From Archangium violaceum (GTDB lineage: Bacteria; Myxococcota; Myxococcia; Myxococcales; Myxococcaceae): 64,000 nucleotides of DNA. Each line of letters begins with the position of its first letter. Position 1 is the first letter of the stretch. Positions 28,274 through 37,428 of this stretch are shown one piece after another. The stretch is from positions 4,491,001-4,555,000 of the forward strand of contig NZ_CP069396.1 in NCBI RefSeq assembly GCF_016887565.1. The letters are read 5' to 3'. The notes beneath the pieces are model-generated. The model made no database searches. It saw nothing but the letters and a program-made list of their open reading frames with translations, and had not been told where the DNA came from. The position numbers and the translations under genes are program-made.

Positions 28274-28643
28274 CTCTGAGTGTCCCGGACAGGTCCCTCA
28301 CTCCAAGTACCCGTCACCTCCGACACGCCCACTGTGCGGAGCCTTTTACCGATTTGCAACGAGCGTTTTCGGGGAGAATGAGGCCTGTCCGTCAGGGAAC
28401 GGTGGACCCCCACCTTTCTCCTCCCGAGCCGTTCGTCGGAGTTCAACCAATTGGATTCATTGGTGTTTTTCGCCAGCCCGTCGACCCGTGGAGGCAGATC
28501 GTTCATGGGGCTGTCAAAGGTTTACCAACGAGGTGTAACAGCGCGGCGGTGGGATGGAGGCGCGGAGTGGAGCACGGCCCGGGGGCATGGGGGTTGATCG
28601 GGCGCTCGCCTGCGCGGAGGTGTTGGGCGAGGCTGCGAGGTCC
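28274..28643. other. divergent promoter region, 370 bp
   Basis: No gene is evident between the divergent regulator and protease genes. It should contain both promoters. A TTTGCAA word is at 28353-28359 and the palindrome CCAATTGG at 28447-28454, with a second ATTGG a few bases on. Confidence 0.45.
28352..28360 (-). promoter_or_regulatory. possible RamB/ScfR-type box (ATTTGCAAC)
   Basis: RamB of Corynebacterium binds sites with a TTTGCAAA core. ATTTGCAAC here, about 80 bases upstream of the ScfR-type gene, matches seven of the eight core bases and could be an autoregulatory site. Single short match only. Confidence 0.25.
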
Positions 28644-30101
28644 GTGCTTCCTTCTCGTCCCCTTCGTGGCTGGCCGAGCCATTCCCTCTCTCTGTGGGTG
28701 GTCCTCGGGTGGATGCTGTGTGGGTGCCACATGGGGGCGCTGCGTTCCCCAGCCGGGCCCGAGAGAGAGCCGGCGGCGCTGCGCTATCTCGTCACCTATG
28801 TCCGGGAGCCCGAGCGTGCGCTGGAGGTGGAGCTTCTCCGCCTGCGGGAGGAGGCCCCCCGGAAGTTCCTCTTCACCCTGCCCGGAGGCGTGTCCGAGGT
28901 GCGCGCCTTGGGGGAGGACGGCTCGGAGCGGGCGCTGCCGGTGTCCGAGGAGGGAGGGGTCCTCGCTCCGCCGGGCACGCTCCGCCTGCTCTACCGCTAT
29001 GAGCTGAGCGCGCACGGCCGCGACGGACATGCGTCCTTCTTCACCGGCCTGGGCGAGGGGGACGCGTGGCACGTCGCGGGCCGGGCCTGGCTGCTGCGCC
29101 CCCATGTGGTGACGCCGTCGCTGCGCGCGGAGCTCGTGGTCCAGGACACGGAGGCGCTGCTGCCCTGGGCTCCGGACGCGGATGGCATCTACCGGCTGAG
29201 GGGCGTGGACCTGGTGGACTCGGGCTTCCACGGCTTCGGTGGGAGGCGGTGCACCGTGCGCCCGCCGGGCGCGGTGCTGGAGGTGGCGGTGCTCGGCCGC
29301 ATGTCGCACGTGGAGGATGCGGCCCTGTGTGCGTGGGTGCGCCAGGCCGCCGAGGAGGTGATGACGGTGCGGCGCACCTTCCCGTACCCGCGCGTCACCG
29401 TGCGCATCGTCCCCGTGCCGCGGCGCGACAATCCCTCCCTCTTCGGCATGGTGCTGTGGAGCTCGCCCCCGAGCGTCTCCCTGCTCGTCGGCCAGGACGC
29501 GACGCCCGGATCCTTCACCCGCGACTGGGTGGCCGTGCACGAGCTCCTCCACCTGGCGCACCCCATCTTCCTTCCGCGCGTCAGCTGGCTGTCGGAGGGG
29601 CTGGCCACCTACCTCACGGAGGTGGCGCGCGCGCGCTCGGGCAGACAGACGCCCGAGCGTGCCTGGGAGGAAATCCTGGACGGCTTCGCACGGGGGCGCC
29701 GCGCCGTGGGCACCCGGACGATGCAGGACGTCATCGACCAGGGGGACTCCTATGTAGGCACCTACTGGACGGGGGCGCTCTTCGCCCTACACCTCGACGT
29801 GGAGCTGCGGCGCGTCACCGGCAACCGCCAGGGGCTCGAGGATGTCCTCGAGCGGCTCGCGCGCGCCGGTTCCACCGCGAGTCTGGATGACTTCGCCATG
29901 GCGGTGGATGCCTTGGCGGGCCGCCCACTCTTCCGCGCGTTGCTGTCACGCCATCTGTCCGCACCGTCTTTTTCTGAACAGGATGCTCTGTTACAAGCCC
30001 TGGGTGTGGAATCCGGACCGCTCGGCGTCCAGCTCGGCCCGGCGCGTGACAGCCAGGTGCGTGAGGCCCTGGTGGGCAAGCGCTCCGAGCCCGCCAGATA
30101 G
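28644..30101 (+). CDS. HEXXH metalloprotease lipoprotein (M1/M61-like)
   Basis: A 485-residue lipoprotein if started at GTG 28644, which gives a compact signal peptide ending LGWMLCGC; ATG codons at 28554 and 28587 would add an implausibly long cytoplasmic part. The catalytic motif is H299-E-L-L-H303 with a second Glu318 in SEGLATYLTE, the gluzincin arrangement. The N-terminal 230 residues are beta-rich as in the M61 glycyl-aminopeptidase family. It would cleave peptides at the cell envelope. No partner gene in the same direction until the RiPP operon, 143 bases downstream. Confidence 0.75.
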   Translation: MLPSRPLRGWPSHSLSLWVVLGWMLCGCHMGALRSPAGPEREPAALRYLVTYVREPERALEVELLRLREEAPRKFLFTLPGGVSEVRALGEDGSERALPVSEEGGVLAPPGTLRLLYRYELSAHGRDGHASFFTGLGEGDAWHVAGRAWLLRPHVVTPSLRAELVVQDTEALLPWAPDADGIYRLRGVDLVDSGFHGFGGRRCTVRPPGAVLEVAVLGRMSHVEDAALCAWVRQAAEEVMTVRRTFPYPRVTVRIVPVPRRDNPSLFGMVLWSSPPSVSLLVGQDATPGSFTRDWVAVHELLHLAHPIFLPRVSWLSEGLATYLTEVARARSGRQTPERAWEEILDGFARGRRAVGTRTMQDVIDQGDSYVGTYWTGALFALHLDVELRRVTGNRQGLEDVLERLARAGSTASLDDFAMAVDALAGRPLFRALLSRHLSAPSFSEQDALLQALGVESGPLGVQLGPARDSQVREALVGKRSEPAR

Positions 30102-30244
30102 CCGATGCGCCCGGAGAAAAGGAGCCTGTAACCCGACGAGACCGGACCGCGTATGTCAGACCGCGCACGCACTCTCCCGGGTGATTGGACTCCCCACCAC
30201 GTGCAGTCCCCATCTCCCACCCAGGAAGTTCGAAAGGAAGTTCC

Positions 30245-30490
30245 ATGAACGTCAAGGCCATGGCCGCCATCGTCGGTACGCTCTCCCTCGGTACGCTCGC
30301 CACCGGCTGTGCGACCGCGAAGCCCATGAAGTCCTCCGTCTCCTCGGAGAGGGGCAGCGAGTACGCCTGCAAGGTCGACGTCTCGGCCGCCCGGCAGGTT
30401 GACGACACCGCCAGCACCGCCACCGCCGAGAAGGCCAGCGAGCACTCGTGTGGTAACGCCAGCTGTGGCGGCGCCACCAAGCCCCAGTAG
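30245..30490 (+). CDS. lipoprotein-type Cys-rich RiPP precursor for the MNIO system
   Basis: An 81-residue peptide with a basic start, hydrophobic core and lipobox LATGC (Cys22), then a Ser/Ala/Thr-rich region with only three further Cys: Cys42 (SEYACKVD), Cys69 and Cys74 (HSCGNASCGG). AAGGAAG precedes ATG 30245. It sits directly ahead of the DUF692 and DUF2063 genes, the place of BufA/HvfA precursors, whose Cys residues are modified by the MNIO enzyme to give copper- or other metal-binding peptides. The CGxxxCGG pattern resembles the ExxCG motifs of HvfA-type precursors. A lipid-anchored precursor would be unusual. Alternative: an unmodified small lipoprotein. Confidence 0.75.
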   Translation: MNVKAMAAIVGTLSLGTLATGCATAKPMKSSVSSERGSEYACKVDVSAARQVDDTASTATAEKASEHSCGNASCGGATKPQ

Positions 30491-30499
30491 TCATCGCGC

Positions 30500-30525
30500 C
30501 TCCCGAGACTCTCGGGGGTTGTCTT
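30500..30525 (+). terminator. attenuator-like hairpin after the precursor gene
   Basis: CTCCCGAG-ACT-CTCGGGGG (30500-30518) can form an eight-pair stem with a three-base loop (one G-T pair) and is followed by TTGTCTT. Placed between precursor and enzyme genes, it may end most transcripts so that precursor is made in excess. Confidence 0.5.
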
Positions 30526-30583
30526 CCGGGCGGCAGGGGGTCTCCTCTCGCCGCCCGCGTCTTTTTCAAGGGGAGTCATCGAC

Positions 30584-31432
30584 GTGCCAGCGAGCTATGC
30601 GCGCAGACATGGATTGAAGCCGCTCGGGGCGGGCATCGGACTGCGGCGCGAGTTCTACGCGCGCCTCCCGGAGACCTCTCGCGCGCTGGACTGGGTGGAG
30701 ATCATCCCCGAGAACTTCCTCACGCTCGGAGGCCGTCCCCAGCGCGCGCTGGACGCGTGCGTGGAGCGCTGGCCGACGCTGCCGCACGGCGTGGCGCTGA
30801 ACATCGGCGGGCCCGAGCCGCTGGACGGGGACTACCTCACGGGGCTGAAGGCGTTGGTGGAGCGGGTGGACGCGCCCTTCTTCTCGGACCACCTCTGCTA
30901 CACGCGGCTGGGTGGGGCGTACCTGTATGACCTGCTCCCGCTGCCCTTCTCGGAGGAGGCGGTGGAGCACGTGGTGCCGCGGGTGCGCGAGGTGAAGGAG
31001 CGGGTGGGCCGGCCCTTCCTACTGGAGAACCCGAGCTACTACGCGCGCATGCCGGGGGGCACGCTGGACGAGGCGGCCTTCCTGCGGCACGTGGCCGAGG
31101 AGGCGGACTGCGGCCTGCTGCTGGACGTGAACAACGTCTACGTGAACGCGCAGAACCACGGGTATGACCCGAGGGCCTTCGTGGACGCGCTGCCGCTGGA
31201 GCGGGTGGTGCAGATCCACCTGGCGGGGCACGAGCGGCTGCCGGACGTCATCATCGACACGCACGGGGCGGCCGTCTGCGACGACGTGTGGACGCTGTAC
31301 CGCTACGTGCTGGAGCGCACGGGGCCGGTGTCGACGCTGATCGAATGGGATCAGGACATTCCCTCGCTGGACGCGGTGCTGGACGAGGCGGACCGGGCGC
31401 GCGCGGTGCTGGCGCGGGTGGAGGGGCGATGA
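30584..31432 (+). CDS. bufB: MNIO / DUF692 multinuclear iron oxidase
   Basis: A 282-residue TIM-barrel protein of the DUF692 (MNIO) family, full length. Expected iron ligands and active-site residues are visible: E39/E43 (VEIIPENF), H103 (SDHLCY), E148 (LLENPSYY), D181/N183/N184 (LLDVNNVYVNA), H212/H216 (IHLAGH), H227 (IDTHG), E254 (IEWDQD). MNIOs use two or three iron ions and O2 to modify Cys in peptide substrates, giving oxazolone/thioamide or thiooxazole groups. GTG start with AAGGGGAG upstream. Its stop overlaps the start of the DUF2063 partner (ATGA). The symbol follows the bufferin nomenclature and denotes family, not proven function. Confidence 0.92.
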   Translation: MPASYARRHGLKPLGAGIGLRREFYARLPETSRALDWVEIIPENFLTLGGRPQRALDACVERWPTLPHGVALNIGGPEPLDGDYLTGLKALVERVDAPFFSDHLCYTRLGGAYLYDLLPLPFSEEAVEHVVPRVREVKERVGRPFLLENPSYYARMPGGTLDEAAFLRHVAEEADCGLLLDVNNVYVNAQNHGYDPRAFVDALPLERVVQIHLAGHERLPDVIIDTHGAAVCDDVWTLYRYVLERTGPVSTLIEWDQDIPSLDAVLDEADRARAVLARVEGR

Positions 31433-32145
31433 AACCCGGGCTGCGTGGCTTCTTCGATTCGATGGCGGAGTACTTCGCGAACCCGGGCCCCGAGGGGGTG
31501 GAGCGGCTGTACGGGGCGCACCCGGGCTGGGACGCGCCGCGCTCGCGGGTGGAGCTCTACGGTCGCCTGGTGCGCCACCACGTGGGGGCCACGCTGGAGA
31601 AGCTCTACCCGCTGACGCGCGTGGGCGTGGGCGAGGAGCGGTGGGAGGCGCTGGTGCGGGCGTACGAGGCGAGCCGGCCCCCGCGCCCCTTCGAGATGAA
31701 CCGGATGGGCGAGGGCTTCCCGGGCTTCCTCGCGGACGAGGTGGAGCGGCGCGGGTTGCCGACCTTCCTGCCCGCGCTGGCGCGCTTCGAGTGGACGGAC
31801 TTCGCGGTGTACGCGTCGCTGGAGCCGGTGCCGGAGAAGGTGGAGCGGCTGACGGTGAACCCGACGCTGGTGGTGCTGGAGCACCCCTTCCAGCTCTGCG
31901 CCTACGTGCGCGCCCGGGGCCAGGGACAGCCGGAGCCGGGGCAGGAGATGGCGCTGCTGTGGCGGCACCCGGAGCGGCTGGTGACGATGTTCGTGGCCGC
32001 CAGTGACCGCTCGCTGCTCACGGTGAAGATGGCGCTGGAGGGGCTCACGCCGTCCCGGGTGGCCGAGGCGACGGGCGTGGCCGAGGCCGACATCCAGGCC
32101 GCCGTGGACGAGAGCGTGGCGGACGGCCTCGTCCTGTCTCCCTGA
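31429..32145 (+). CDS. bufC: DUF2063 RiPP partner protein (BufC/HvfC-like)
   Basis: A 238-residue protein with the DUF2063 N-terminal domain (LRGFFDSMAEYFANP...LYGRLVRHHVGATLEKLYPLT) and a C-terminal winged-helix-like part (LTPSRVAEATGVAEADIQAAVDESVADGLV). Such partners bind the precursor leader and present it to the MNIO. Translationally coupled to the DUF692 gene by ATGA. No DoxX-type membrane gene (BufD/HvfD) follows; a strong terminator comes directly after the stop. Cytoplasmic. Confidence 0.88.
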   Translation: MKPGLRGFFDSMAEYFANPGPEGVERLYGAHPGWDAPRSRVELYGRLVRHHVGATLEKLYPLTRVGVGEERWEALVRAYEASRPPRPFEMNRMGEGFPGFLADEVERRGLPTFLPALARFEWTDFAVYASLEPVPEKVERLTVNPTLVVLEHPFQLCAYVRARGQGQPEPGQEMALLWRHPERLVTMFVAASDRSLLTVKMALEGLTPSRVAEATGVAEADIQAAVDESVADGLVLSP

Positions 32146-32193: not shown

Positions 32194-34545
32194 CTACTGG
32201 ATGGGCACCTTGCACACGGTGCCGTTGGCCGAGCTGGTGCACCGCAGGCCGTCGCAGCACGCGGAGTTGGCACCGCACGGCTGACCGATGCCGGAGCACG
32301 GCGGACGGCAGGTGCAGTTGTCACCCGTGCACTCGGCGCCGGCGTCGTCCAGGCAGCGCATGCCATCGCAGCAGGGCGCCACCTGCGAGCACTTCTCGAA
32401 GGCCGTTCCGCACAGGGCCGGGGGCGCCTTGCACACGCAGCCGCCGCTCACGTCACACGGCACGGGCGGATCCTTGGTGGGGTTGACGCAGTTCAGGCCG
32501 TTGCAGCACGAGCCCGCTCCGGTGCAGTTCTCGCCCACCGTGGAGCACCCGTTGACCACGAAGTACTCGGCCCACTGGGCGATGTGGTTGGAGGTGTTGA
32601 GCGTCTGGAAGGGCAGGGCGAAGGCCGCGTAGGACGGATCCTCCCCCTTCTCCAGCTTGCCCCCCTCCACCGCCGCCATCCACAGCAGCGTGCCGCTGTC
32701 GGGGTACTCGTCGCCACCCTTGGGCGGCTGGCGCAGGCCGTACATGCGGCTGGAGGAGAACGTCGTCCACATCAGCTGGCTGCTCTCGCTCGCGCTGCCC
32801 CGCGTCACGAAGGGGCTCCACTTCGGGTAGCTGTTGGTGAGGTTCGTGTTGCCCTTGTCCATGGGGCCCGGCGCGTTGATGCGCGCGAGCTCCACGGGCG
32901 TCGCGTTGGCCTGCAGCTTCGCCGCCCACATCTTCGCGGACGGATCCGTGTCCGCGTTGCAGTACTTCTCCTTCTCGGTGTTGGCGGTGGGGCAGGTGGA
33001 CTCGTTGTAGACGAGGAAGGAGTTGTTGGGCGCGATGGCCGGGTAGTAGCGGTTCTTCCCGCTCACCGCGGGCACGATGGTGAAGGGCGCGCTCCAGGCG
33101 CCGCCCGTCTGCTGCGTCACCGCCTTGATGGCGCCCTTGCCCATGCGCTGGTTCGTCTCGCGGATGCCCACGGCCGTGTAGGCGATCGTCTTTCCATCCG
33201 CGCTCCAGTCGGGGTGGTTGGCGGGATTGGCCTGGGTGCCGGTGTTGGCGATGACGCCGGTGCGCTTGCCCGTGGTGCCGTCGAAGAGGAGCAGGTTGTG
33301 GTTGTTGGAGCCGCTGTCGGTGTAGACGCCGACGAACTTGCTGCCGTCCGGGTTCCACGACTCGAAGATGCTCTTGTCGTCGGTGCTGGTCGACACGATG
33401 TTCGTCTTGCTGGCGGGCGTGAAGTTGGACAGGTCCACCAGGGCCAGGCGGCCATCGTTCTGTCCCTGGACCTCGGCCACCACCTTCTTGCCGTTGCGGC
33501 TCAGCGCGTGGCAGCCCACGCAGGAGATGCCGGAGTCGTTGATGTTGTTCTTGGTCAACACCTCGGAGGCTTTCTTGCTGTTGGGGTCGGCGAAGTCATA
33601 ACGCATGACGCCGGGGGTGCTGCCCGTGGTGGTCCAGTAGTAGAGCGCGCCCTTGAGCTCGGCGCGGGAGAACTGGATGGTGATGGGATCGGACACGCCC
33701 ACCGTGCCTCCCGTGTCACCCGTGGCGCGCAGGATGACGCGCACGGGCTGGCCACCGCGGTTGCTCTCCGCGAGGAACTTCCACACCTGCTCCGAGGGCG
33801 TGTAGATGCAGCCGCGGGAGACTCCCGTGGGCAGGGTGAAGTTGTCCGGCAGGTAGCAGCGCAGGTAGACGCGCACGTCGGTGACGGTGTTGCTGAAGGC
33901 CAGCTCGAAGAGGGTGTTGCTGGTGGGGCCGGGCAGGAAGTGGATCTCCAACTGCCCCAGGTTCGGCGGCACCATGACGCCGCTGTTGGGGTAGACGAGC
34001 GTCGGCTTGCGCGTGGCTTCCACCTGGCCGTCGAACCGCGACTCCGGCTGCGAGGGCAGGGTGGAGGAGCCGGGCGCGCTGTCCGGCAGCTTCTGCGCCA
34101 TCTTCACGGTGATCTGCGTGGAGACGGACGTGGTGCCGATCTGCGCGCGCACGTAGCTGGTGCCGCCCACCGTGGCGCTCGACTTGAAGGTGGAGCCGCT
34201 GAACGAGCCCAGCTGCGTGTTGTCGATGAAGAAGCTGGCCTGGCCCGTCACGTCCTCGGTGTGCTTGTCGGTGTAGGTGCCGGTGACGGTGTAGCTCTGG
34301 GTGACGCCCGTGGTGCCCGTGACGGAGAGGGTCGCGTTGGCGGGGGAGATCGTGATCGACTTCAGGGTGACCTCGCCCCCGCCCCCGTCGGGATCGCCGC
34401 CGTCGTCGTTACCCGTCGAGTCCCCGCCGTCCCGCCCGCCATCCGCCGTTGGATTGCCGTTGCCGTTTCCTCCAGGAGTGGGGGTACAGCCAGACAGCGC
34501 CAGCGCTGTCATCAAGATGCCGAGTAGCCAGTTGTTCTTCCTCAT
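32194..34545 (-). CDS. beta-propeller lipoprotein with CxxCH haem motif and Cys-knot tail
   Basis: A 783-residue lipoprotein: lipobox LSGC (Cys20), a Gly/Asp-rich linker, a Big2-like Ig domain (residues 60-148), then a TolB/WD40-like propeller (180-665) with repeats such as SIFESWNPDGSKFVGVY and HPDWSADGKTIAY. C342-V-G-C-H346 is a c-type haem attachment motif, followed by ALSRNGKKVVAE. The last 117 residues hold three small Cys modules, each with CC(N/D)G-(L/M)-x-C, like animal dickkopf/knottin domains. Expected on the cell surface or in the periplasm; electron-transfer role is inference. ATG 34545 is chosen since the signal peptide starts there. A shorter paralogue without the tail lies at 50349-52259. 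Confidence 0.8.
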   Translation of the reverse strand: MRKNNWLLGILMTALALSGCTPTPGGNGNGNPTADGGRDGGDSTGNDDGGDPDGGGGEVTLKSITISPANATLSVTGTTGVTQSYTVTGTYTDKHTEDVTGQASFFIDNTQLGSFSGSTFKSSATVGGTSYVRAQIGTTSVSTQITVKMAQKLPDSAPGSSTLPSQPESRFDGQVEATRKPTLVYPNSGVMVPPNLGQLEIHFLPGPTSNTLFELAFSNTVTDVRVYLRCYLPDNFTLPTGVSRGCIYTPSEQVWKFLAESNRGGQPVRVILRATGDTGGTVGVSDPITIQFSRAELKGALYYWTTTGSTPGVMRYDFADPNSKKASEVLTKNNINDSGISCVGCHALSRNGKKVVAEVQGQNDGRLALVDLSNFTPASKTNIVSTSTDDKSIFESWNPDGSKFVGVYTDSGSNNHNLLLFDGTTGKRTGVIANTGTQANPANHPDWSADGKTIAYTAVGIRETNQRMGKGAIKAVTQQTGGAWSAPFTIVPAVSGKNRYYPAIAPNNSFLVYNESTCPTANTEKEKYCNADTDPSAKMWAAKLQANATPVELARINAPGPMDKGNTNLTNSYPKWSPFVTRGSASESSQLMWTTFSSSRMYGLRQPPKGGDEYPDSGTLLWMAAVEGGKLEKGEDPSYAAFALPFQTLNTSNHIAQWAEYFVVNGCSTVGENCTGAGSCCNGLNCVNPTKDPPVPCDVSGGCVCKAPPALCGTAFEKCSQVAPCCDGMRCLDDAGAECTGDNCTCRPPCSGIGQPCGANSACCDGLRCTSSANGTVCKVPIQ

Positions 34546-34699
34546 GGCTGCCCAGGGTAGCGCTAATCCTGGCGCCCCGCTCGTGGTTCTGGACAGTCCT
34601 CCCCGGCGCATTCACTCGCATCGCAAGCTTGAAACCTCGCGACAATACAAGTGTATGTGTGTTGCGAATTTCCCAGATTCTCAAAACACGCCGTGAATC

Positions 34700-35779
34700 C
34701 TAACGTCGTGGACGGCAGACGGCGCCCACGGCCGTCTCGGTGCAGGCGAAGCCCTCGGGACACTCGGTGTCCGAGGTGCAGCGGAAGGTGCAGGACTCCT
34801 CGACACACAGCCCCTGGACGATGCCGCGGGCCCTGCAGCGCTCGTCTCCGTCGCAGGAGGCGCCCACCTGCCGGTACGCGAAGCAGCTCGCGAGCTGGGC
34901 CTGTTGGGGCAGGCACCACGTACCCTGGCAGGTGAAGCCCTGCGGGCATTCCGTCTTGCCGTCACATCGCGCCACGCAGGCCATGAGGCCCCTGGGGAGA
35001 GTCTCGCAGCGCACGCTGGACATGCACTGCCAGTCCCCATTGCAGGCGGCGCACAGGACGCCGGGCCCCTCGCAGCGCTCGCTCCGGCAGGAGAAGCCCG
35101 GAGTGCACTGGTCATCCGCGGTGCACTCCACGCACCGCCCATCCGAGGCACAGTGGGTGCCGCGCTCGCAGCCGGTGACGGTGCAACCCTGTTTGATGAG
35201 GTCATCGTCCGGTTCGGAGAGCTGGACCTTCAGCTCCTTCTGCTCGCTCTCCTTCACGCAGGCGTTCGTCTTCTTCACCGGGTAGCCGGGGACGGAGACC
35301 TCGAGGTCGTAGCAGCCATCCGGAAGGGGACCCAGGCGCAGGCAGCCGTCCTCGTCGAGCCGCAGGCCCTGGAAGGGCATGCCCATCACGGAGACCTGTC
35401 CGTCGCTCACGCGCTGGTGCGAGGGCGCCTTCACCCGCAGCGCCAGGAAGCCGGCCTCGCGCGGCACCACTTCTTCCAGGTGCGCCGAGCCGCCCCCGGG
35501 CACCTGCACCGGCAGGCGCACCGCCTTGTCCGCCGAGGCCAGGATGAAGAGCTCCACCGGACCCGCGGGCACGTTCTTCAACACGAAGCTCCCGTCCTCG
35601 GCCACGGTGCCGCGCAGCGCCGGGTCGCCCACCAGCGACACCAGGGCCACCGACGGGTCCGCCTCCGTGAGACGGCCCCGCACGGTGCCCGTCCGGAAGG
35701 GAGTGTTGTCGAATCCCCCGCACGCGCCTACCGCGACGGCGAGGGTCATCATCACGCTGTAGTAGACGGTCTGGCGCAT
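34700..35779 (-). CDS. Cys-rich lipoprotein with carboxypeptidase-regulatory-like domain
   Basis: A 359-residue exported protein; the signal (MTLAVAVGACGG) has a lipobox-like VGAC. Residues 30-185 contain two beta-sandwich segments of the PEGA/CarboxypepD_reg type (GTVAEDGSFVLKNVPAGPVELFI; DEDGCLRLGPLPDGCYDLEVS). Residues 190-359 hold about 22 Cys in short modules (CERGTHCASDGRCVECTADDQC), resembling EGF-like or stigma-repeat-type regions of myxobacterial surface proteins. Start at 35779 overlaps the caspase gene stop (TGATG), so the two are made together; it could be a substrate or surface partner of the caspase. Confidence 0.72.
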   Translation of the reverse strand: MRQTVYYSVMMTLAVAVGACGGFDNTPFRTGTVRGRLTEADPSVALVSLVGDPALRGTVAEDGSFVLKNVPAGPVELFILASADKAVRLPVQVPGGGSAHLEEVVPREAGFLALRVKAPSHQRVSDGQVSVMGMPFQGLRLDEDGCLRLGPLPDGCYDLEVSVPGYPVKKTNACVKESEQKELKVQLSEPDDDLIKQGCTVTGCERGTHCASDGRCVECTADDQCTPGFSCRSERCEGPGVLCAACNGDWQCMSSVRCETLPRGLMACVARCDGKTECPQGFTCQGTWCLPQQAQLASCFAYRQVGASCDGDERCRARGIVQGLCVEESCTFRCTSDTECPEGFACTETAVGAVCRPRR

Positions 35780-37428
35780 CAGAAGCGGTACCCCACGCCG
35801 GCCCATCCACCGGAGAATCCCACGGCCTGCCCCTGCCCATCCACCACCACGTACGTCAGCATCAGCTGCGTCTGCGCGGCCAGCTCCAGCCGGTCGTTCA
35901 GACGCCACACCACGCCACCCACCACGCCCGGGCTGAAGGTGAAGTACTGCTGAGCCCCGGTGAAGGCCTCTGTCTGAAAGGACCGCTGGAGCAGCAGAGC
36001 GGCCACACGCGGCCCCGCGTAGAGCGACAGCCGCTCCCACCGCCACGTGTAGGGCACCGCGGCCCCCAGCGACAGCGAGGTGTAGGTGAAGGGCACGGAG
36101 CCGCCGGGCACCAGGTTGAGGCTGCGCCGGCCCCGGCTGCCACTCACGTCGAAGACGAGGCTGAGGTCCGGCAGCGGCCGCTCCTCCAACCGCAGCACCA
36201 CCGCCAGCTCCGGCGCGGCCGGCAGCAGTTCGTCGCGGCTGCGCGCGTCCACGAAGGAGAACATGCCGCCCATCACCGACAGAGAGCGGCGCGGGAAGGC
36301 CTGGGACAGCAGCCGCTCCAGCGGCAGGCGCTCGCCCGCGGTGATGTCCACCACCTCGCGGATGAGGACGTTGTCCCCCTTGGTGAGCTCCACGGTGCGG
36401 CGGCCGGGCGTCACGGCGGCGCCTCCGGGCAGCTCCGTGCGCGTCTCGCCATCCACCTTCAGCGTGAAGCCATCCAGCCGGGGGTTGTACGAGAAGAGCT
36501 CCGGACGGCCCATCCGGTCGATCCGCCCGGAGAGCACCACCGGATCCGCGCCCACCTCGAGGATCTCCGCCGAGGGCCGCTGCCGCCCCTCGGTGAAGGC
36601 ATAGGTGTGGCGGCGCGCGTAGTCGTGGGCCTCGGTGGCGGTGACGGCGCCGTCGACGTTGCGGTCCGCGGCCCCGTTCAACCCGTTGATGAGGAAGTGG
36701 GTGTAGATGTCGTTGCGCAGCCCCTCGTCCTCGCGGGCCGTCTCGCCCCAGTCGCAGGCGGCGAAGACCATGGAGGCACGGCTCGACTCCTCGATGGGGC
36801 GCGCGTAGAAGCCGGACTTGATGCCCGCCAGCTCGGCCTCCAGCTCGCGGGGCAGCAGCGACTTGCCGCTGCCGCTGTGACACGTGGCCAGCACCATCAG
36901 CCGGCGGCGCGAGGGCAGCTGGTCGAACTCGGACTTGAGCGCGTCCATGGACAGCGCCGTCTGCGGAATGTCCCGGAAGGCGGCGTCCGTGGTGACCAGG
37001 TAGCGCTTGAGCTCGCCCTTGCCGTCGCGGGCCAGCGTGCCGTGCGCCGAGAAGTACACCACCACCACGTCATCCGGCCGGGTGGCCTCCTGCCGCAGCT
37101 GGCGCAGCGCGGCGAGGATGGAGGCGCGGGTCGTCTCCTCGGGCCGGGAGAGGACGCGCACCCGGTCGAAGTGGCCGCGTCCGGGATCCCTCAGCGCCGC
37201 GGCCAGATCCTCCGCGTCCTTGGAGGAGTAGCGCAGGTTGCGCCACTGGCTGTCCTGGAACTGCGACACGCCCACCAGCAGCGCCAGGCGCCGGGGGGCG
37301 TAGGCGTCGGAGAGCGCTGTCTCGTCCACCTTCACGGACACGAGCCCGCCCTTGCCGCCCTTCTCGAGCGAGCCCGGGCTCGCGCAAGCCGCGAGTACCG
37401 CCAGGAGCGTGAAGAGGATGCGTCTCAC
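35779..37428 (-). CDS. caspase-family (C14) cysteine protease lipoprotein
   Basis: A 549-residue protein with lipobox LAAC (Cys15). Residues 45-290 are a caspase/metacaspase-like p20 domain: RLALLVGVSQF, catalytic His129 in YFSAHG and Cys183 in LATCHSG. An EF-hand-like loop (DRNVDGAVTATE) follows. Residues 320-380 are PEGA-like, and the last 170 residues are alternating beta strands ending in Phe (WAGVGYRF), as in outer-membrane barrels. Bacterial orthocaspases usually cleave after Arg or Lys. The enzyme would be placed at the outer membrane. It follows the anti-sigma gene with a four-base overlap and is co-transcribed with the sigma factor. Confidence 0.87.
   Translation of the reverse strand: MRRILFTLLAVLAACASPGSLEKGGKGGLVSVKVDETALSDAYAPRRLALLVGVSQFQDSQWRNLRYSSKDAEDLAAALRDPGRGHFDRVRVLSRPEETTRASILAALRQLRQEATRPDDVVVVYFSAHGTLARDGKGELKRYLVTTDAAFRDIPQTALSMDALKSEFDQLPSRRRLMVLATCHSGSGKSLLPRELEAELAGIKSGFYARPIEESSRASMVFAACDWGETAREDEGLRNDIYTHFLINGLNGAADRNVDGAVTATEAHDYARRHTYAFTEGRQRPSAEILEVGADPVVLSGRIDRMGRPELFSYNPRLDGFTLKVDGETRTELPGGAAVTPGRRTVELTKGDNVLIREVVDITAGERLPLERLLSQAFPRRSLSVMGGMFSFVDARSRDELLPAAPELAVVLRLEERPLPDLSLVFDVSGSRGRRSLNLVPGGSVPFTYTSLSLGAAVPYTWRWERLSLYAGPRVAALLLQRSFQTEAFTGAQQYFTFSPGVVGGVVWRLNDRLELAAQTQLMLTYVVVDGQGQAVGFSGGWAGVGYRF

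Follow-up and report, generated by a model that had tools for sequence, protein, structure and literature searches.

The characterised systems that pair an MNIO enzyme (DUF692) with a type 1 partner protein (PME1) install 5-thiooxazoles and generally bind copper (PMC12668002). The motif EGKCG is common to oxazolin, fontiphorin and gonophorin, which are grouped as captophorins; its cysteines are converted to 5-thiooxazoles that bind copper (PMC12668002, PMC13097082). Whether EGKCG products are cut, and whether they act whole or as fragments, has been stated as an open question (PMC12668002). Lipid-anchored MNIO RiPPs have been demonstrated experimentally in NedA and DybA, and NedA from Neisseria dentiae was isolated in triacylated form, each EGKCG being 4 Da lighter (PMC12636315). 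Among Buf2 bufferins, about 16% are predicted to be lipoproteins (PMC12452194). Two further groups, the CxxxxC precursor family (PMC12452194) and a lipoprotein cluster X (PMC12636315), have also been described.

The window analysed here, a 64,000-nucleotide stretch of the Archangium violaceum genome, contains an operon with the traits of captophorin-type MNIO-PME1 systems: an MNIO with an iron site, a DUF2063-RRE gene behind it and, directly upstream, a cysteine-containing precursor with a Sec signal. It probably makes a lipid-anchored captophorin-type (oxazolin- or bufferin-like) RiPP that would hold Cu(I) at the envelope. With oxazolin (HvfA/HvfBC, Haemophilus influenzae), fontiphorin, gonophorin and bulbicupramide it has in common the order precursor-MNIO-PME1, a Sec-type signal and a core of the EGxCG kind, divergent in the window and literally EGKCG in three orthologues. 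It differs from oxazolin and the other EGKCG captophorins in its type II signal, its few cysteines, the Ser or Gly in front of cysteine, the absence of DoxX in cis and a linked M61-like peptidase; its proteins also score under the cut-offs of the HvfA, HvfB and HvfC models for the oxazolin system. NedA-NedBC, in which lipidation and the loss of 4 Da per motif were established (PMC12636315), likewise combines a type II signal peptide with a core of EGKCG type, whereas the window operon belongs to another phylum, has a divergent core and includes an additional peptidase and hairpin. Bufferin 1 (DUF2282) relies on the same type of enzyme pair, and the window MNIO passes the BufB model, but the window precursor is without a DUF2282 match and its MNIO lies in a separate clade. 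If correct, this assignment extends captophorin-type systems through the Myxococcota, with a recognisable lipid-anchored branch. Since lipid-anchored MNIO RiPPs are already known elsewhere, it is this branch that is new here, the principle having been published.

Gene content and conservation of the operon

The precursor gene (30245..30490, plus strand) is preceded by a ribosome-binding site, AAAGGAAG (30233..30240, plus strand), which the upstream alignment shows to be kept in relatives. Translation gives an 81-residue peptide with a lipobox, L-A-T-G-Cys22, and Cys42, Cys69 and Cys74 as its only other cysteines, exactly as the first-pass annotation had read it. The type II signal peptide region up to Cys22 (LATGC; 30245..30310, plus strand) is the best-kept stretch of 40 aligned distinct orthologues (M-N-x-K-x-x-A-A-x-V-G-T-L-S-L-x-x-L-A-T-G-C-A), as would be expected if it also served recognition; it presumably doubles as the recognition sequence, a dual role for which a case has been made in bufferin and oxazolin (PMC12452194, PMC13419390). 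The lipobox cysteine and the terminal cysteine pair are kept in 40/40 of these precursors, the lipobox count being partly circular as the search pattern demanded GC[AG]. The unbiased counts come from searches for upstream peptides made without a lipobox requirement, and here too a cysteine behind a hydrophobic segment was found clade-wide, which predicts lipidation.

In these searches a scan of species genomes yielded 80 MNIO loci, and small signal-bearing cysteine peptides were sought before each. The same peptide precedes every MNIO locus of the close clade (at least 76% identity to the window MNIO), which comprises Archangium, Hyalangium, Myxococcus, Corallococcus, Pyxidicoccus and Citreicoccus; homologous DUF692 loci devoid of the peptide, which the first-pass annotation had named as evidence against its reading, did not occur there. 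Precursor, MNIO and DUF2063 gene all recur across the Myxococcaceae, with the Myxococcus xanthus orthologue at locus L038. It is highly improbable that the small gene encodes an unrelated lipoprotein while the enzymes act on another substrate: the gene stands directly before the MNIO gene in all close relatives, cysteine motifs matching known cores are kept while the rest varies, and the sister species differ chiefly at third codon positions (8, 4 and 12 differences at positions one, two and three), against which can be set the weak family scores of the precursor and another precursor-like gene elsewhere in the genome. A plasmid search with the precursor returned no match, and neither did a search of PHROGs.

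The MNIO gene (30584..31432, plus strand) has a GTG start and encodes 282 residues, assigned to the bufferin/oxazolin maturase type by Pfam, NCBIfam BufB and the tree. The protein scores 347 bits against Pfam MbnB_TglH_ChrH (PF05114) and 320.8 bits against NCBIfam BufB, above the cut-off of 310, while its 295.6 bits against HvfB fall below the cut-off of 360. Its iron-site residues H103, E148, D181, N183/N184, H212, D225, H227 and E254 do not vary among nine diverse relatives, and its D-x-H pair aligns with that of 3bww, a Histophilus HvfB relative (PMC13419390). Methanobactin-type and ChrH-type assignments were rejected on scores far under cut-off. The DUF2063-RRE partner gene of PME type 1 (31429..32145, plus strand) overlaps the MNIO stop with its start (ATGA). 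Its product matches Pfam DUF2063 (PF09836) with 52 bits, scores under the NCBIfam HvfC cut-off, and is modelled by AlphaFold (pLDDT 88.5) as a helical DUF2063 domain and an RRE-type domain; the only significant PDB matches of the model are TglI and NgoC (3dee, E 2.9e-6), the partner protein in gonophorin maturation (PMC12668002). The domain matches and the clade-wide lipobox thus bear out the first-pass reading of a RiPP operon in which a DUF692 protein with the expected iron ligands and a coupled DUF2063 protein follow a lipoprotein-type precursor. The absence of a DoxX-type gene likewise stands, as none of the nine DoxX matches of the genome falls inside the window.

In the MNIO tree the Myxococcota form a clade apart from the DUF2282 clade. 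The lipobox loci make up one branch (94/96), with support of 100/97 when the lipobox-bearing L047 and L048 are included. Nine other loci of the same clade (L050-L052, L056, L133-L135, L137, L138) are of SPI type: their signal peptides are ordinary (MNKKLLGAVLGSFVIAAPAFAEDK, for example) and their cores are of the GGEKSCG type. The simplest reading of this distribution would be that lipid anchoring was gained on the Myxococcaceae stem. L048 is labelled Planctomycetota and L032 Comamonas; both are Myxococcaceae-like loci and probably come from mislabelled or contaminated assemblies. In Polyangiaceae/Myxococcales MAGs, lipoproteins with AGCPA repeats precede MNIO genes (L054 3324-3971, L055 3354-3986); the repeats are joined to a longer domain with a CxxCH haem motif, cytochrome P460-like by eye, and the L054 protein has no match in Pfam.

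Core motif, modification and copper

The core EHSCGNASCGG (30440..30472, plus strand) holds Cys69 and Cys74, and its CGxxxC pair is present in 40/40 precursors. Literal EGKCG occurs in 3/40 orthologues, which at the core position read EGKCGEGKCGEGKCG (L018, L027) or EGKCG (L028), and EGxCG in 23/40; judging from this alignment, the EHSCG/NASCG of the window is a divergent form of EGxCG. The first-pass annotation had set the core apart from that of DUF2282 bufferins, which holds; the core is not an unusual one, as orthologues have the EGKCG of oxazolin. A DUF2282 bufferin was rejected, with DUF2282 unmatched in the precursor and in the whole genome; against NCBIfam HvfA (NF050137/NF050188) the precursor reaches 14.3 bits, below the cut-off of 19.5, and the orthologues likewise remain below cut-off.

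With the CxxxxC family and cluster X the precursor has in common a signal peptide and a CxxxxC pair, which C69-GNAS-C74 fits literally, and motif and signal peptide are found together in 40/40 orthologues. Lactamase_B_2 is encoded in 54% of the CxxxxC clusters and nowhere near the window operon. The family is reported from the Pseudomonadati, the kingdom that includes the Myxococcota, so some of these precursors may already be counted there; by motif and description, the precursors aligned here may overlap the CxxxxC family.

The captophorin assignment is favoured by the MNIO tree, where the lipobox-type branch has the SPI-type GEKSCG loci as its neighbours and the DUF2282 clade stands apart. 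Against it stand the sub-threshold HvfA scores, the Ser in place of Lys before the core cysteine, and the presence of only two conserved core cysteines, few for a metal store. On the captophorin reading, the DUF2063-RRE partner would present the precursor to the MNIO in the cytoplasm, with the signal peptide serving as leader, and the MNIO would oxidise Cys69 and Cys74 with a loss of 4 Da each, probably to 5-thiooxazoles. Cys42 (codon 30368..30370, plus strand; context YACKV) may escape. The first-pass annotation had listed it with Cys69 and Cys74 among the positions to check for mass shifts. It is not a shared core residue: its column is Cys in 29/40 precursors, making it optional, and as FonBC leaves a cysteine before a charged residue unmodified, NACKG included (PMC12668002), Cys42, which precedes Lys, is by analogy across enzyme families a doubtful target. 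The modified peptide would then be exported by Sec, acylated on Cys22 and cut by signal peptidase II; with Ala at +2, the lipopeptide would probably be sorted to the outer membrane and hold Cu(I) at the envelope.

The difference between CGxxxC and EGKCG also leaves room for another cysteine modification by the MNIO, such as an oxazolone/thioamide or a chryseobasin-like crosslink of paired cysteines. Such chemistry would agree with an enzyme that passes the BufB and not the HvfB cut-off and branches in a separate clade, and ChrH-type enzymes do act on two-Cys motifs (PMC12636315). It is nevertheless unlikely, given that the enzyme resembles ChrH only weakly (38 bits, cut-off 600), that all characterised MNIO-PME1 pairs make 5-thiooxazole (PMC12668002) and that true EGKCG repeats occur in the orthologues.

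No copper gene or regulator lies within the operon, no usable report on the operon was found in published copper studies of M. xanthus, and doubt has been cast on copper protection by the related mmr cluster (PMC12538549). A less probable alternative is that the peptide is modified and lipidated for a purpose other than copper defence, be it another metal, redox stress, or shedding on outer-membrane vesicles in predation or development. This would fit the absence of a metal regulator and of DoxX near the operon, and the Microbulbifer EGKCG cluster, which is not copper-induced and gives little protection (PMC12538549). It would also fit the YceI-type lipid-binding gene that adjoins the precursor in some other Myxococcaceae: at 14 loci (L027, L028, L029, L033, L034, L037, L039-L042, L044-L046, L140), which include Corallococcus, Pyxidicoccus and some Myxococcus, a gene for a YceI-like periplasmic protein is inserted directly before the precursor gene and behind that of the peptidase, the gaps being small enough to allow a single operon. 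Against this alternative, copper binding or a link to copper stress is on record for most characterised relatives (PMC12668002, PMC12452194).

A linked M61-like peptidase

The locus had been taken for a compact set of three genes, a view that does not survive comparison across the Myxococcota. Upstream of the precursor lies a gene (28554..30101, plus strand) for a predicted exported M61-like gluzincin metallopeptidase (HELLH...E) with a lipobox-like LCGC. Alignment and an AlphaFold model (pLDDT 87.9) agree on a gluzincin fold with HExxH and a third Glu, residues that are kept in all homologues; the best PDB matches are M61 peptidases (aminopeptidases), while the Pfam M61 score of 14.6 bits is below the cut-off of 22. 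Among the 70 strong matches to the peptidase in 147 genomes from the class, 62 have an MNIO gene no more than 5 kb away on the same strand, the peptidase gene being upstream in 57 and downstream in five; most of the 57 are relatives that share synteny, and the weight of the linkage rests on the rearranged cases. At L050 the peptidase gene is divergent, and one of the eight unlinked matches (G054) appears to be split across contigs, with one piece beside an MNIO gene. No peptidase gene lies near the second-copy operons of Archangium (L043, L112) and of a related genus (L110), and the peptidase is thus not strictly required. A RamB-like regulator and a TPR gene further upstream were rejected as parts of the operon and are regarded as neighbours, being syntenic but missing in the outgroup.

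Peptidases of the family carry a cysteine right behind the hydrophobic segment (LCGC, LGAC, LSAC and similar), in contrast to the outgroup peptidases with a clear N-terminus. On this single phylogenetic contrast, the predicted anchoring of peptidase and precursor changes together. An exported peptidase in the same compartment would most simply trim or turn over the exported peptide. A more specific proposal, which we advance only tentatively, is that the peptidase is a dedicated captophorin partner that switched together with the precursor from soluble to lipid-anchored in the Myxococcaceae, and that it processes or releases the modified peptide. A linked peptidase of this sort is not reported in published systems of the kind, and no protease was seen near the mmr cluster (PMC12538549); were the proposal true, this system would be the first among the thiooxazole metallophores to have a protease of its own. 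The occurrence of a family-wide operon with a linked predicted peptidase in a tractable group (Myxococcus xanthus) makes the question of whole versus fragment testable, and the natural contrast between soluble and anchored forms aids in testing whether thiooxazole metallophores act whole or as fragments.

The intergenic hairpin and other genomic loci

Between the precursor and MNIO genes lies a terminator- or attenuator-like element (30526..30566, plus strand), a G+C hairpin with arms CGGGCGGC and GCCGCCCG followed by CGTCTTTTT, which includes TCTTTTT. Most relatives share this hairpin, usually with a T-rich tail, and shuffled controls fall far short. Across 20 sequences 95.8% of cells are paired, compared with 47-68% in slid controls, and three pairs have changed on both sides, a modest covariation signal as the outer stem hardly varies. 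The hairpin is missing from the second-copy operons, where the precursor abuts or nearly abuts the MNIO gene. Its plain reading would be a partial terminator yielding precursor excess, keeping precursor transcripts above those of the enzymes. A sigma-70 promoter scan, poorly suited to a G+C-rich myxobacterium, found none.

The genome holds a single DUF2063 gene, that at 31429-32145, and an orphan precursor of the same family 2.4 Mb from the operon (G000:C1:2082802-2083088; L104:4089-3802, minus strand). This 95-residue peptide has a lipobox and five further cysteines, no MNIO or DUF2063 gene lies nearby, and the sister species has it in the same position (L108). The MNIO and DUF2063 pair of the window may modify it in trans; bufferin families are known to include precursors that stand alone (PMC12452194). 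MNIO genes number three in the genome. The second (L002/L105, G000:C1:2493177) lies behind a gene whose product ends in GGGGGCGGCGGGGGGD in the manner of TIGR04222 proteins, and the third, MNIO-like gene (L003/L106, G000:C1:7524266) is very divergent, with an open frame of 550 residues. Two further genes of the window lie downstream of the operon on the minus strand: a caspase-domain (Peptidase_C14) protein is encoded at 35779-37428, at a similar distance from the operon in several relatives, and the gene at 32194-34611, which adjoins the operon in Archangium, specifies a large secreted protein that combines PD40-like repeats with Cys-rich, knottin-like repeats at its C-terminus.
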